In this document: positions 3,012 to 9,305 of the stretch, in pieces
Layout of the letters: each line of letters begins with the position of its first letter
How positions within the stretch are numbered: position 1 is the first letter of the stretch
IMG/VR virus record: IMGVR_UViG_3300034112_000630
Location: 1-22,437 of that record
DNA from: a virus
DNA: 22,437 nt
Direction: 5' to 3' (one strand)
Translations under genes and position numbers: made by a program
The notes under the pieces: generated by a model
Told to the model about the DNA's origin: nothing
Databases searched by the model: none
Seen by the model: only the letters and a program-made list of their open reading frames with translations

Positions 3012-4088
3012 ATGAAGGTAGCAGTATATACAATTGCTTTAAATGAACTTAAGTTTGTTAAAAAATGGTACGAGTCGGCAAAAGATGCTGATTACCTTTT
3101 AATAGCAGACACAGGATCTACAGATGAAACCGTGTCTTTGGCTAAAGAACTAGGCATAAACGTAATAAACATTGGTGTAAAGCCATGGAGATTTGACGAT
3201 GCTCGTAACGCTTCTTTAGCTGCTTTGCCTTTAGACATAGACTACTGCATTGCCTTAGACATGGATGAAGTTCTTATTGAAGGCTGGCGTCAAGAGTTAG
3301 AAAAAGCTCATAAAGAGGGTTGGACTAGACCTAGATACCAGTACACTTGGAATTGGAAAGAAGACGGAACCCCTGGACTTCAATATGGCGGGGATAAAAT
3401 TCACACTCGAAAAGGATATCGTTGGAAGCACCCTGTACACGAGGTTTTAGTAACTAATCAAAGTAACGAAATACAGGGGTGGATAGGCTTAGAAATACAC
3501 CACCACGCAGATGACAGTAAGTCTAGATCTCAATATATGCCCCTTTTACAACAGGCTGTATTAGAAGATCCTAGTGACGATAGAAACGCATTTTATTTTG
3601 CTAGAGAATTATTTTTTCATAATCAAAAAGAAAGAGCTATACAGGAATTTGAACGGCATCTTTCTTTGCCTAGAGCAAAATGGCCTCCAGAAAGAGCGGC
3701 TTCTATGCGTTACTTAGCCAAATTAATGGACGACAGTAGAGAAAGAGAAGAATGGTTAAAACGATCTATTAGAGAAGCACCTAATAGACGAGAAGGGTTT
3801 GTAGAGCTTGCCGAGTTTTATCATGAGCAGCGACGTTGGGAAGAGTGTCTTCTTGCGGCTGAAAATGCCCTGTCCATAACAGAAAAGCCTTTAGAGTACC
3901 TGTGTGAAGAGTTTGCCTGGGGATATATGCCCTACGACTTTGCGGCACTAGCAGCCCATAATCTAGGAAATTCAGAGAAAGCCCTGACTTACGGCACCAA
4001 AGCTGTAGAATTAAATCCAGACGAACTTAGGCTTCAGTCTAACTTAGCCTTTTATTCACGGGAGACCCTAGATGGCAACAACCTATAA
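3012..4088 (+). CDS. Family 2 glycosyltransferase with C-terminal TPR-like repeats
   Basis: 358 residues. The N-terminal half is a GT-A fold glycosyltransferase of the GT2 type: YTIALNE at the start, nucleotide-sugar loop ADTGSTDET (32-40), DDARNASLA, and the metal-binding DxD as D83-M-D85 within ALDMDE. Such enzymes move a sugar from a nucleotide-sugar to an acceptor in the cytoplasm. A conserved His-rich stretch IHHHADD follows. The C-terminal half is helical with TPR-like units, the clearest around AAHNLGNSEKALTYGTKAVELNP, which may bind the protein acceptor. ATG 3012 follows GGAG. The gene lies among fibre genes and its last 17 bases overlap the next one, so virion surface proteins, particularly the neighbouring Thr-rich collagen-like fibres, are the likely acceptors; that is inference. 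Acting on host surface glycans is the alternative. Confidence 0.85.
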   Translation: MKVAVYTIALNELKFVKKWYESAKDADYLLIADTGSTDETVSLAKELGINVINIGVKPWRFDDARNASLAALPLDIDYCIALDMDEVLIEGWRQELEKAHKEGWTRPRYQYTWNWKEDGTPGLQYGGDKIHTRKGYRWKHPVHEVLVTNQSNEIQGWIGLEIHHHADDSKSRSQYMPLLQQAVLEDPSDDRNAFYFARELFFHNQKERAIQEFERHLSLPRAKWPPERAASMRYLAKLMDDSREREEWLKRSIREAPNRREGFVELAEFYHEQRRWEECLLAAENALSITEKPLEYLCEEFAWGYMPYDFAALAAHNLGNSEKALTYGTKAVELNPDELRLQSNLAFYSRETLDGNNL

Positions 4089-5284: not shown

Positions 5285-7588
5285 ATGGCAACATACGTCA
5301 AGGTTGCCGGTACTTGGAGGGAAGTCACATCTGACTCTCCTTCTAATGGTGTTTGCGGTTATGTAAAAGTAAACGGAACTTGGCGTACAGTAAATCAATC
5401 TTACGTAAGAATCAATGGCGTATGGAGAGCAACTTGCACAGCTCCGGGGCAACAACCACCAGCTATTCCAGAAACCATCTGTTATCGTCCAAACTATTGT
5501 TTAAACGGCACTAACGGAGTTATTCTTGCTACTACCGAGCCTTGCTATTTAGCAGACGGCGTTACTTTAGGAACTAGAACCGCCCCCTATACCTGTCAAA
5601 CCGATCCAGGATGCATTACCTACACCGTTCCCGCAGGAGTTTGTACTGCTCCAGACCCTATTATCTCTGTTGTCTCTGAAGAAATTGGAGATTGCGAATT
5701 TTGGGGGGGTCTATCTGGATGTACTTCCGGTTACGCAAAACGTGTAACACGACGCATGAGCGATTCTTCGTTAAAGGTGTCTTATAGTTGTTGTAATCCT
5801 TTAGAACCTAATTTAAAATATTATTGCACCCTACGTCCTTTTACAACAGGTCAATGTTTAAACGAGCTAAAGGATACTGATTTTACAGGGGTAGTTATTG
5901 CTGGACAGGGCGAGTGGGTATGCGAAGAGTTAGGTATTACTTCTTTTCCTTCATGCTCTACTGCAGAAAACTGTACTGTTCCAAAGTCAACTAGTTCAAC
6001 TTACGAAGGCTGCGGTTATCTAAGCACTGGACAACGTTTAGTAACTACTAATACTTATCAGAGTTGGTGTGAAACAACTCAAGAGACTGTAATTGGTGAC
6101 TGCGTTGGAGAAATTCCAAAATGCGGAGGATATTACTGCGGAGAAGGCAGCGGAGAAGAAGAGTACTCAACTTCTACCTGTGGTTCAGGAACTGGCGTTA
6201 GGTATAAGTGCGTAACCCCTGAAGGTTGTAACACTGTCTATACCTTTAGACGTTGTATTCCTCAACCACCACAAGAAATTATTGGCACGCCAGTAACTAG
6301 GTACACAGAAATTTGCTACACTACTAACTCTACTAGTAGTGACCCTACTTCATGCCGTCAATTTATAAGTTACACGGGTTCGGGTACTCCAGGAACAAAC
6401 TGTGTAATTTACGGTACTGGTGGGGATACATTTATTCCTTGCCCAAATATACCGGGTGCAAGTAGCGGAGTTACAGGTAACTGCAGCACCTGTGTATCCA
6501 CGTTTCAAATTCCATGTACTACAGACGATGGAAGACCGGGATCTCAAAGTGAGTGTATAACTCCAGAGAATTGTGAAAATATTTATGGGGCATGCGTAGC
6601 AGCTGCTGGAGGATGTAACGATTGTGTTCAGACAGACACATATGACTGTGTTTGTCCAGGTGGGTCTGCTGGAACCTATACTATTTGTACAACTCCTGGA
6701 GATTGCCCTAATATTGAGTCCCCTTGTGGGCCTTGCACAGCAACTGGTGGTGGTCCAAATTGTTCTGATTGTTTCTATGGATCAGGAACTGAACCATGCG
6801 GAAATGGCGGTACACGAACTTACTGTATTACTCCTGTAGGTTGCCCAGACATTTATGGCGCTTGTACTGGACAAGTCGGTGGTACAACTCCAAATGAAGG
6901 AACAGTTTCTAACCCTACAGGCCCTACATACACTATTGTTCCAGGAACGACTGTTACTAGTCCTGGAGACGGTAACACTACGTGGGTAACTAATGAAACA
7001 ACTGATGGTGGATCAGTATTAGAGTTAGTAGATAATACTACCGGGCAACCTGTTACTACAGAACCTATCGTATTCCCGCCTCTAGATCCTATCTTTTTTG
7101 GAACAGGTAAGAGTATTAATATTAATACTTTAGTGCGAACACGTGATGGGTTAGTACCTGCTTTTGATCTAAAAGTTGGGGATAAACTTCTTTCTGCCGA
7201 TATTGAGTCATTCCCATACGATAATTTGTTATCTACAAATATGGACCTTATTGAATGGACGGCTCAAAACCCACACATTAATCTTGTGGAAACTGAAATT
7301 GTTAGCCTTCGTAATCGCATTTCTAAATGGGCAGTTATCGTTGATTCAGACATATTTTCAGACAGTCACTACATCTTAGTTAACCGTAATGATGTAACCA
7401 AGTTTGTAAAGGCTATTGAACTTGAACGTACTGACCTTATTTGGTCAAATATTCATCACAATTGGCTTAGCATAGGTGTATTAAAGAAGGTAGACGTAAA
7501 CCACGAAGTGGTCTCTATTGACTGCGAGCCTTATGATATATTCTTTACCGAAAGGATGTTGACCCACGACTCAAATACGGTTGACTAA
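5285..7588 (+). CDS. Cys-rich virion adhesin with C-terminal Hint (intein-type) domain
   Basis: 767 residues. Residues 4-49 hold three copies of a Y-V-[KR]-[VI]-x-G-x-W-R unit. Residues ~50-530 are Cys-rich (I count 50 Cys before residue 530) and Gly/Thr/Ser-rich, with at least four copies of a C-x5-C-x6/8-C unit containing T-P (starting at C309, C424, C468, C514). A Thr/Pro linker (~535-608) leads to a ~158-residue Hint domain: S610 in the place of intein Cys1, NTLVRTRDG, DLKVGDKLLS, a block B-like S692-D-S-H695, and the ending H761-D-S. No signal peptide or membrane segment. Likely a tail or surface adhesin whose end is processed or capped by the Hint domain; function is inferred. No clear Shine-Dalgarno precedes ATG 5285, so coupling to the gene three bases upstream is probable. 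Confidence 0.75.
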   Translation: MATYVKVAGTWREVTSDSPSNGVCGYVKVNGTWRTVNQSYVRINGVWRATCTAPGQQPPAIPETICYRPNYCLNGTNGVILATTEPCYLADGVTLGTRTAPYTCQTDPGCITYTVPAGVCTAPDPIISVVSEEIGDCEFWGGLSGCTSGYAKRVTRRMSDSSLKVSYSCCNPLEPNLKYYCTLRPFTTGQCLNELKDTDFTGVVIAGQGEWVCEELGITSFPSCSTAENCTVPKSTSSTYEGCGYLSTGQRLVTTNTYQSWCETTQETVIGDCVGEIPKCGGYYCGEGSGEEEYSTSTCGSGTGVRYKCVTPEGCNTVYTFRRCIPQPPQEIIGTPVTRYTEICYTTNSTSSDPTSCRQFISYTGSGTPGTNCVIYGTGGDTFIPCPNIPGASSGVTGNCSTCVSTFQIPCTTDDGRPGSQSECITPENCENIYGACVAAAGGCNDCVQTDTYDCVCPGGSAGTYTICTTPGDCPNIESPCGPCTATGGGPNCSDCFYGSGTEPCGNGGTRTYCITPVGCPDIYGACTGQVGGTTPNEGTVSNPTGPTYTIVPGTTVTSPGDGNTTWVTNETTDGGSVLELVDNTTGQPVTTEPIVFPPLDPIFFGTGKSININTLVRTRDGLVPAFDLKVGDKLLSADIESFPYDNLLSTNMDLIEWTAQNPHINLVETEIVSLRNRISKWAVIVDSDIFSDSHYILVNRNDVTKFVKAIELERTDLIWSNIHHNWLSIGVLKKVDVNHEVVSIDCEPYDIFFTERMLTHDSNTVD
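5294..5431 (+). repeat. Three YVKVxGxWR coding repeats
   Basis: Residues 4-13, 26-35 and 40-49 of the Cys-rich protein read YVKVAGTWRE, YVKVNGTWRT and YVRINGVWRA. The copies differ at DNA level (gtcaaggttgcc, gtaaaagtaaac, gtaagaatcaat), so they are old. They may form a small beta docking element at the virion end of the protein. Confidence 0.85.
6209..6865 (+). repeat. Cys-rich C-x5-C-x6/8-C protein repeat units
   Basis: Four units within residues 309-527: C309 (CVTPEGC...C), C424 (CITPENCENIYGAC), C468 (CTTPGDCPNIESPC) and C514 (CITPVGCPDIYGAC). The last three share 14-residue spacing C-x5-C-x6-C and are separated by CxxC-containing linkers (CNDC, CGPC, CSDC). This could be a disulfide-stabilised or metal-binding stalk. 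Confidence 0.8.
7112..7570 (+). other. Hint/intein-like domain coding segment
   Basis: Residues 610-762 of the Cys-rich protein. Block A-like start: S610-I-N-I-N-T-L-V-R-T-R-D-G, then DLKVGDKLLS. Block B-like: S692-D-S-H695 followed by YILV and a KAIELERTDLIW segment matching the usual A-x-E-L-x-x-[GT]-D-x-[LI]. Block F/G-like: EPYDIFFTERMLTHDS. The size (~153 residues) suits a mini-intein without homing endonuclease, and none of its motifs is seen. The canonical Cys1 is Ser and the canonical terminal Asn is Asp762, followed by S763. Only five residues (SNTVD) lie after the domain. Confidence 0.7.
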
Positions 7589-7590
7589 CC

Positions 7591-8100
7591 ATGAACTCAA
7601 ACGGCGCACAAATTCTAAACTTTGACTTCCCAGAGAAGTTAAATGGGTTCTGGGTACATGTTTGTGTTGAGCCTGAGCACAACACCTATACATATATTGT
7701 CTCAATATATAAGAATAATAAAAATCCTACAGGAACGGTAATACTAGACAAATACCTTCCGTATGACTACCCGGATATGTATATGTGTGTCGACACTAAC
7801 TACCAGGCTCTTCGGGTATACACCAACCCTGTTCATAGACGTAATGGGTATTGGGTGGCTTTTGGCGTGTTCTTTAAAACCTTCTTTGCTACTCAATTTA
7901 ACATAGACCTAGAAGCCCCATTTGATCGAAGTAAGTGGACAGATAAGATCTACAGTAAGGCTAGAAAGATATATGGGCAAAGCTTTGCAACCCCAGTATT
8001 ACGTGGGGGACGTATAGACCACGATGAAATGGAACCCCCTAGAGATCCCGCTTTTCCTTTGATATGGTTTGGTCAAAGAATAGGCGGCTTTAATGAGTAA
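7591..8100 (+). CDS. Unknown phage protein, faint GNAT-like pattern (169 aa)
   Basis: 169 residues beginning MNSNGAQILNFDFPEK. The order of elements, strands (VHVCVEP, YTYIVSIYK), then LRVYTNPVHRRNGYWVAFG followed by a helix, recalls the acetyl-CoA binding strand and loop of GNAT acetyltransferases (V-x-P-x-x-R-x-x-G), but the loop is not canonical and I rate that match as weak. The C-terminus has a basic YSKARKIYG helix and ends DPAFPLIWFGQRIGG. No Cys-rich, membrane or signal features. It starts two bases after the Hint protein and overlaps the next gene by eight bases, so it belongs to the same unit. If it is an acetyltransferase it could modify virion proteins or sugars; otherwise a structural role is possible. 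Confidence 0.55.
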   Translation: MNSNGAQILNFDFPEKLNGFWVHVCVEPEHNTYTYIVSIYKNNKNPTGTVILDKYLPYDYPDMYMCVDTNYQALRVYTNPVHRRNGYWVAFGVFFKTFFATQFNIDLEAPFDRSKWTDKIYSKARKIYGQSFATPVLRGGRIDHDEMEPPRDPAFPLIWFGQRIGGFNE

Positions 8101-8548
8101 AGAACAAGAACTACTTAAAGTATTAACTAAGCCGGTAAAAGTATTTTCCTCAAATGTACCTATTGTCAAAGAGCAAGCCCTTAACAATGCTCATAGAGAG
8201 ATAAAAAAGCTACTAGACGATTCCTGCAGCTACTACGAGTTGAGTCGCTCCCACTCAACTTTCTATCTATCATCAGAGTTAATAAGCGGAGTACGAACAG
8301 ATGTTTGGTACGACACTGGTGGAGTCAGGATCCCGTGTTTTTCTGGCGCGTACGTTCTACAGGCTGAGGCGGGCAGTTTTATGACGGTAGCGGATATACC
8401 AAATCTACTAGCACCCGGAGACCTATACCTTTGGGAGGCAGGAAAGAAGATTAGTTATAGTCATAAAAATACATTTATGCTAGGCTTCAACATAGCCCCA
8501 AAATCTATGCTTAAAAATCAAGACCCATCTAGATGGTCAGAAATATAG
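8093..8548 (+). CDS. Unknown beta-rich protein, cupin/2OG-oxygenase-like pattern (151 aa)
   Basis: The ATG lies eight bases inside the preceding gene. An N-terminal helical part (~1-50, PIVKEQALNNAHREIKKLLDD) precedes a strand-rich part: FYLSSELISG, RTDVWYDTGG, GAYVLQAEAGSFM, then LAPGDLYLWEAG, a turn-strand pattern like the G-D-x-[LV] turn of cupin and double-stranded beta-helix proteins, then HKNTFMLGFNIAP. A clear H-x-D plus distal His triad of 2OG-Fe(II) oxygenases is not evident, so catalysis cannot be claimed. Its last half resembles the product of the gene at 8829 in general layout (turn with G, then aromatic strand, then N-x-[FI]). Unrecognised family; neighbours suggest virion maturation or decoration. 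Confidence 0.55.
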   Translation: MSKEQELLKVLTKPVKVFSSNVPIVKEQALNNAHREIKKLLDDSCSYYELSRSHSTFYLSSELISGVRTDVWYDTGGVRIPCFSGAYVLQAEAGSFMTVADIPNLLAPGDLYLWEAGKKISYSHKNTFMLGFNIAPKSMLKNQDPSRWSEI

Positions 8549-8557
8549 GAGAATAAT

Positions 8558-8836
8558 ATGTCTGAGGATAATTTGTCGTTATGGCAAAAATACAAGAAGA
8601 ACTTGGGTGATACTCGTCCTTGGGATCTTCTAGATAAAAACGTTCCTAGAACAACAGATGCGGTGGCTAAAAAGCGTCTTGAAATCTGTAATGGGTGTGC
8701 CCACTTAACTAAACTTACCCAACAATGTAAAAAGTGTGGGTGTTTTATGCATCTTAAAGTTAAGCTTGCACCTGCTGAATGCCCTATTGGCAAGTGGGCT
8801 GCGGTAGAAGAGGTTAAGGGGCCGGAGAGTGAATAA
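8558..8836 (+). CDS. Six-Cys zinc-binding protein, DUF6171-like
   Basis: 92 residues with a good AGGAG before ATG 8558. Cys residues at 44, 47, 57, 60, 62 and 75 make the pattern C-x2-C-x9-C-x2-C-G-C...C-P-x-x-K-W (C44NGC, C57KKCGC, CPIGKW). This matches, as I recall it, the small phage protein family DUF6171, which occurs among late genes of myoviruses; the four or more conserved Cys suggest a structural zinc site. Biochemical function unknown. The N-terminal ~35 residues are polar and helical (SLWQKYKKNLGD). It ends overlapping the GTG start of the next gene by eight bases. Placement between two beta-rich unknowns suggests one small operon segment. Confidence 0.75.
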   Translation: MSEDNLSLWQKYKKNLGDTRPWDLLDKNVPRTTDAVAKKRLEICNGCAHLTKLTQQCKKCGCFMHLKVKLAPAECPIGKWAAVEEVKGPESE

Positions 8837-9305
8837 GGTTATACAAGATTTATTATCTGAGAGGGACTTTGAGTACCTACAAAAATACGCTCTAGAACAC
8901 CATGAAGCTTTAAAAAAAGCTAGACCTATTCATGAGTCTGGTTACGGAGTGCTGCAGCTAAAGGATACTCCAGAGCTTCGGATGCTACATGAGAAGATGT
9001 TACCTGTGGCTCGAAAGATGTTTATGAACGAGTCCATTATTCCTAACTGGCAATGCCTAGATATCCATGCTGGACCTCAACCAACACAAACTTCTAAGAG
9101 TTTTACCGAGGATGCGGATTACGTAGTGAGTCTAGTTGCTTATCAACAGTTGGGTTGGGAAGTCTCTGTGGGTGGTCAGACATTTGAATTGTCGGAAAAT
9201 GAGGGCCTATTCTTTAGCGCAGATCAAGAAATGCTACGTTCCGAGTTTCCAGATCCCTTTAATAACGTAGTGGCTAACGCTTTCTTTTTCTTCATTCAGC
9301 CTTAA
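8829..9305 (+). CDS. 2OG-Fe(II) oxygenase-like/DSBH protein, metal site doubtful
   Basis: 158 residues from GTG 8829, chosen because GGGGCCGGAGAG gives a ribosome binding site and the overlap with the previous stop suits coupling. Layout resembles prolyl-4-hydroxylase-type double-stranded beta-helix proteins: an N-terminal helical part, then CLDIHAGPQ (where H-x-D is expected), a strand DYVVSLVAYQQL, GWEVSVGGQTFEL (the GGxx-F strand), ENEGLFFSADQEMLRSEFP (turn and the place of the distal His, here absent) and the final NNVVANAFFFFI strand. The H-x-D and the second His are not both present, so it may be a non-catalytic relative. If active, hydroxylation of Pro or Lys in the collagen-like fibres would be an attractive role, but this is inference. 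Confidence 0.5.
   Translation: MNKVIQDLLSERDFEYLQKYALEHHEALKKARPIHESGYGVLQLKDTPELRMLHEKMLPVARKMFMNESIIPNWQCLDIHAGPQPTQTSKSFTEDADYVVSLVAYQQLGWEVSVGGQTFELSENEGLFFSADQEMLRSEFPDPFNNVVANAFFFFIQP

Follow-up and report, generated by a model that had tools for sequence, protein, structure and literature searches.

The Hint-ended gene and its surroundings

The window (the whole stretch of 22,437 nucleotides analysed here) is a contractile-tail module, in which genes for the sheath, the tube and the baseplate hub accompany one for a tape-measure-size protein that carries M23 and SLT lysozyme domains. The gene under study is an open frame encoding a phage surface or tail protein (Table 1), the C-terminus of which was matched by PHROG 38766, 'virion structural protein' (E = 2.7e-5). 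An earlier note, made from the letters of this DNA, had placed a Hint domain at the very end of this protein; the frame and all residues that it named (S610, S692, H695, H761, D762 and S763), together with the five-residue tail, are indeed present. Only five residues follow D762, where the protein stops, and the domain plus tail make up its last 158 residues.

Table 1. Positions of the features in the window
Feature	Positions	Strand	Basis or remark
Phage surface/tail protein with Hint domain, 767 aa	5285-7588	+	open frame; contractile-tail module
N-terminal YVKVxGTWR repeats, residues 1-50	5285-5434	+	sequence reading
Cys-rich stalk, about residues 51-553	5435-6943	+	50 Cys counted in residues 1-553
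Cys-free Pro/Thr/Gly linker, residues 554-609	6944-7111	+	sequence; model pLDDT <50 just before the domain
Hint domain Ser610-Asp762 and five-residue tail SNTVD	7112-7585	+	PDB profile matches, structure match Z 16-18, family conservation
Ser610, Hint position 1, candidate nucleophile	7112-7114	+	the same in every member of the Ser1 clade
Block B motif S692-D-S-H695 ([ST]xxH)	7358-7369	+	B:7 S/T and B:10 H throughout the Ser1 clade
Block F motif DCEPYDIFFT	7520-7549	+	in relatives Cys747 is C/T/V; Asp at the F:13 place nearly invariant
Block G end H761-D762, then S763-N-T-V-D	7565-7585	+	HD in 72 of 78 distinct Ser1 domains
GNAT-like gene, 169 aa, directly downstream of the Hint gene	7591-8100	+	conserved neighbour; weak GNAT evidence

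The N-terminal repeats are a probable virion-attachment module. Many unrelated phage proteins (L114-L127) carry such repeats at one end or the other, N- or C-terminal, where they probably provide a common virion anchor. The Hint-bearing protein itself is Cys-rich, and the collagen module that the earlier note had ascribed to it lies elsewhere: two upstream genes (317-1213 and 1213-2694) encode collagen-like GXY fibre proteins that have an N-terminal module in common. A family 2 glycosyltransferase with TPR repeats (3012-4088; PHROG 13126, E = 1e-118) is encoded between the fibre genes. Further downstream, two small conserved genes (8093-8548 and 8829-9305) have the look of 2OG-oxygenases by eye and gave no Pfam or PHROG match, and a DUF6171 protein with a Cys-rich, zinc-ribbon-like motif (8558-8836; PHROG 13558) is conserved in the neighbourhood.

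Assignment of the C-terminal domain to the Hint superfamily

Searches of Pfam, NCBIfam and the PDB with the single sequence were weak or empty. Pfam Hint_2 was found with an E-value of 0.011, below the Hint_2 cut-off, and the top phmmer matches in the PDB, to the CaMKII association domain, were dismissed as chance. A family profile was built from 60 members and searched against the PDB. It matched solved Hint domains, one BIL and three inteins, with E-values of 5.5e-7 to 2.9e-5, including 2lwy (BIL, 5.5e-7), 6riz (gp41-1 intein, 1.2e-5) and 9hth (2.4e-5). In the profile matches that cover block A, the Ser1 column aligned on position 1 of the intein or BIL, and block G aligned without gaps to the end of the gp41-1 intein. 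The Hint assignment is firm because homologues add what the single sequence could not provide.

The AlphaFold2 model of the domain has a pLDDT of 85.9, with values above 90 over most of the domain, and the top of its list of PDB structure matches contained Hint folds only. By VIA-align, the model matched BIL2 6y75 (Z 18.4, 1.8 A over 137 residues), BIL 2lwy (Z 16.9) and Hedgehog 1at0 (Z 16.7). Model residues 22-174 (S610-D762) aligned to residues 1-440 of the Mtu RecA intein; in this alignment S610 occupies position 1 and D762 the place of the terminal Asn. The features that characterize the superfamily, Cys or Ser at position 1 and a block B [T/S]xxH, are present as S610, S692 and H695. By predicted fold, profile and motif, the C-terminal domain of this protein is therefore a member of the Hint superfamily. 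The extreme C-terminal location, the Ser at position 1 and the Asp at the terminal position, all proposed in the earlier note, are supported, as is the bond between residues 609 and 610 as the predicted cleavage site. Lys609 is the predicted C-terminus of the mature adhesin.

Residue sets, site rates and neighbours across the family

Over successive scans of IMG/VR, the number of related places rose from 22 to 78 and finally to at least 158. Residue counts rest on 90 distinct domains: 78 with Ser1, 11 with Cys1 and one without a position 1. The Ser1 domains end in HD (72), YN (4) or YD (2) and never in HN, the end found in all 11 Cys1 relatives; the HD count is biased, since some search patterns included block G residues. 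More generally, the patterns used in the later scans lie in blocks F and G, so that the conservation of these blocks is partly by choice; Ser1 was no part of those patterns. Found in 72 of the 90 distinct domains, the Ser1/HD residue set is standard for this large phage family; the earlier note had taken it to be unusual. No relative was found among 84,980 bacterial and archaeal genomes by two scans with the family patterns, the sensitivity of which is limited to the chosen peptides.

In the tree, Ser1 domains form one clade (support 96/87) with the Cys1/HN protein of L120 as sister; the switch to Ser1 therefore happened once, and the association between this switch and the loss of HN counts as one event. 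Divergence within this clade reaches about 30% identity, for a total tree length of about 15. Ser1 is the slowest-evolving of the 161 sites, followed by a block A Thr; the block B His (B:10) ranks 5th, G:6 13th, G:7 14th, the +1 residue 43rd and F:4 50th. Many other, non-catalytic columns are nearly invariant too. Ser1 and, in block B, both the Ser/Thr and the His are retained across the Ser1 clade.

The +1 residue, which evolves several times faster than Ser1, is Ser or Thr in most Ser1/HD members and V, R, L or G in some Ser1 domains; it is mostly a non-nucleophile in Cys1 members, and across the family it can be V, R, L, G, A, K, I or M. F:4 varies across the Ser1 clade and is Ser in the protein studied here, versus the usual Asp or Cys. 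The motif NX His that marks Ser1 inteins lacks conservation here: in an approximate alignment, the column has His in 4 of 73 sequences and mostly Arg or others. Cys747, considered as an obligatory class-3-type nucleophile, was rejected: it is invariant in the first 15 sequences and C, T or V in the wider set. Common to the family are the position-1 nucleophile and [ST]xxH; the C-terminal residue set differs.

The Hint domain is always C-terminal in the relatives, on open frames of up to 1381 residues, and is followed by 1-46 residues across the family (4-46 in the Ser1 clade). Tails of 35-46 residues are conserved in one subclade (L076, about 6537-6642, after HD). The stalks beneath the domain are unrelated to each other (Cys-rich, PASTA, FN3 or collagen), and L114 and L116 have the same type of Cys-rich N-terminus but no Hint domain, which indicates that the Hint domain is a module. 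Six contigs (L070, L073, L080, L085, L086 and L088) carry two Hint-ended genes, and in several of these the GNAT-like neighbour lies beside one copy only. In Trichodesmium phage NCTB, a stand-alone 153-aa Hint relative, which has neither the position-1 nucleophile nor the block B His, is encoded directly after a Hint-ended tail gene (L128, 6744-7205).

A GNAT-like gene follows 55 of the 71 assessable distinct Ser1/HD genes, whatever the stalk type, and none of the 11 Cys1/HN or six YN/YD genes. The single-protein scan with the product of the window's copy returned close copies only, and Pfam gave weak GNAT matches for a few members of its family. The best 50 VIA matches were mostly GNAT enzymes at Z 6-7; as this is under the tool's own caution level, the GNAT label is tentative. 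The CoA-binding motif is degenerate in the window's copy and classical-looking in that of L071. A 2OG-Fe(II) oxygenase gene (Pfam 2OG-FeII_Oxy_3) lies directly after the Hint-ended gene in L104 (6518-7270), L120 (5674-6381) and L039 (6465-7064), and in L104 and L120 it can take the place of the GNAT-like gene where that is absent. The gene order is different in the clades and contigs with such an oxygenase.

Predicted processing and comparison with known Hint systems

Features of the N-terminal acyl shift are common to the family and evolve slowest, and those of C-terminal cleavage and ligation vary from clade to clade, which makes a Hedgehog/BIL-like cap the economical reading. We favour, at a probability of about 0.55, active N-terminal processing by a Hedgehog/BIL-like C-terminal autoprocessing Hint domain acting at 609/610; in its best reading the domain has been kept for an N-terminal reaction there, cleavage or transfer, with C-terminal cleavage weakened. 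After folding, Ser610, aided by the block B S/TxxH, would attack the Lys609-Ser610 bond and form an ester, which water or another nucleophile would resolve, so that the adhesin would be freed or capped at residue 609. The C-terminal reaction would be suppressed by Asp762, which stands where Asn is usual, or, in side branches, by the missing penultimate His; the Hint domain would then depart together with its short tail, and the released product would be the working adhesin. Phages of this family would probably trim or cap their adhesins by such self-processing chemistry, as judged from conservation and the predicted fold. Catalysis by Ser1 is established for Ser1/Ser+1 inteins, in which an NX His was found by Pasch et al. 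(PMC10189870), and Asp is on record as an alternative to the terminal Asn (PMC4031507). The lack of conservation of that His in the phage family and the Ser at F:4 argue against activity, and Ser1 could also be invariant for a structural reason.

These same features suit a Hint fold that has lost its catalytic activity and serves the adhesin tip as a structural or receptor-binding cap, a reading which we regard as unlikely, if the most serious of the rival readings. Besides the missing F:4 Asp and NX His, such a cap would account for Asp in place of Asn and for the many nearly invariant non-catalytic columns, and the stand-alone NCTB relative indicates that decay does happen in this family. 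In a dead domain, however, Ser1 and the block B His would be expected to be lost, and they are among the five slowest sites at about 30% identity. Ordinary splicing, in which the domain would act as a Ser1/Ser+1 mini-intein ending in Asp and join the stalk to SNTVD, or elsewhere to a tail of 28-46 residues, appears more doubtful still. Ser or Thr is found at +1 in most Ser1/HD members, the longer tails show conservation of their own, and inteins that end in Asp are held to use the class 1 pathway (PMC4031507). Yet the +1 residue is V, R, L or G in some Ser1 domains, is mostly a non-nucleophile in the Cys1 group and changes several times faster than Ser1; there is neither a homing endonuclease nor an insertion site in a conserved host protein, and a tail of a few residues offers little reason to splice. 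The retention of Ser1 and of the Ser/Thr and His in block B, set against variable C-terminal residues and a +1 nucleophile that several members lack, makes cleavage or capping likelier than splicing. To this extent the earlier note, which had held cleavage to be 'as likely' as splicing, is supported by inference. A selfish mini-intein was rejected in view of the absence of an endonuclease and of a conserved insertion site and of inheritance as one clade, and a polymorphic-toxin processing Hint in view of the absence of a toxin domain after the Hint domain.

The Ser610 ester might also be passed to a nucleophile, covalently joining the C-terminus of the adhesin to another virion protein or a host surface group. 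This chemistry is known from Hedgehog and BIL domains (PMC7664689, PMC4031507), the apparent suppression of C-terminal cleavage would leave the N-terminal step alone, and a conserved neighbour gene is present; no sterol-recognition region follows the Hint domain, however, and the neighbour resembles a degenerate GNAT and not an obvious acceptor. We hold such a transfer to be highly improbable. Scarcely better odds are given to the idea that the Ser1/HD Hint domains are a phage-specific family which no longer cleaves at its C-terminal end and in which a Ser ester at the adhesin tip links the fibre covalently, by its C-terminus, to another part of the virion or to a host surface group, perhaps aided by the co-encoded GNAT-like protein.

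If processing at 609/610 is active, phage adhesins would gain a maturation step built on intein chemistry and used on many stalks of environmental phages, parallel to, yet unrelated to, S74 chaperone domains. Nature would then have supplied many Ser1 Hint domains that have cysteine at neither junction and that appear to keep the N-terminal step with a weakened C-terminal one. This set makes the role of each end of the Hint active site directly testable and may suit protein labelling under oxidising conditions.

Hint-ended tail proteins are already on record without an assigned function. Cultured jumbo phages with a Cys1/HN Hint domain include the Erwinia/Dickeya Alexandravirus, Erwinia phage Y3, Yersinia phage fHe-Yen9-02 and Trichodesmium phage NCTB; NCTB has three Hint proteins annotated 'intein domain', as is Y3_110. 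Their Hint domains are homologous to the one described here and also C-terminal, on a collagen-like or long tail protein, but have Cys1 with His-Asn, a short tail and a mostly non-nucleophilic +1 residue. The papers found on phage Hint domains deal with inteins of enzymes such as terminase and ribonucleotide reductase; among the open-access literature searched, no paper addressed tail proteins that end in a Hint domain. What is new is the phage Ser1/HD C-terminal Hint clade, not Hint-ended phage tail proteins as such.

Hedgehog is joined to cholesterol by its Hog domain, and Peptidase S74 domains are C-terminal self-cleaving modules of phage fibres. The phage domain resembles Hog in its C-terminal autoprocessing position, in fold and in the expectation of a reaction at the N-terminal junction only; it differs in having Ser for Cys at position 1, and the protein ends five residues after the domain, where Hog has a sterol-recognition region. 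S74 and intramolecular chaperone domains are likewise C-terminal, self-cleaving and carried on interchangeable fibre stalks (PMC7824862), but their Ser-Lys chemistry and their fold are unrelated to Hint. PT-HINT peptidases of polymorphic toxins also end a filamentous stalk (PMC3482391); there a toxin domain follows, whereas the phage clade has a short tail alone.

Closest in fold are type A BIL domains (2lwy and the ciliate BIL2 6y75), which also have a position-1 nucleophile and [ST]xxH, are sited in variable surface proteins and do not strictly require a +1 nucleophile. They are, however, defined by a C-terminal His-Asn (PMC4031507), while the phage clade, found here in phages only, has Ser at position 1 and ends in HD, YN or YD. 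Type A BILs are also described as lacking a +1 nucleophile, which is present here as S763 and in most Ser1 members as S or T, and type B BILs as having no block G similarity to inteins, whereas block G of the phage family aligns to gp41-1. Cys-less Ser1/Ser+1 inteins (PolB16 OarG and Aes123 PolB1, 9hth) share Ser1, mostly Ser+1 and the block B His. S610 and S763 give the Ser1 and Ser/Thr+1 of a class 1 intein, but in the phage clade the terminal residue is Asp, the +1 nucleophile is not obligatory and the NX His, at an approximately aligned column, is not conserved; the domain is always C-terminal on variable stalks and not inserted between two functional exteins. In conclusion, as it lacks the HN of type A BILs, has a block G unlike type B BILs, and shows neither an intein-type insertion nor a sterol region, the domain is best described as belonging to a phage Ser1/HD C-terminal Hint clade.
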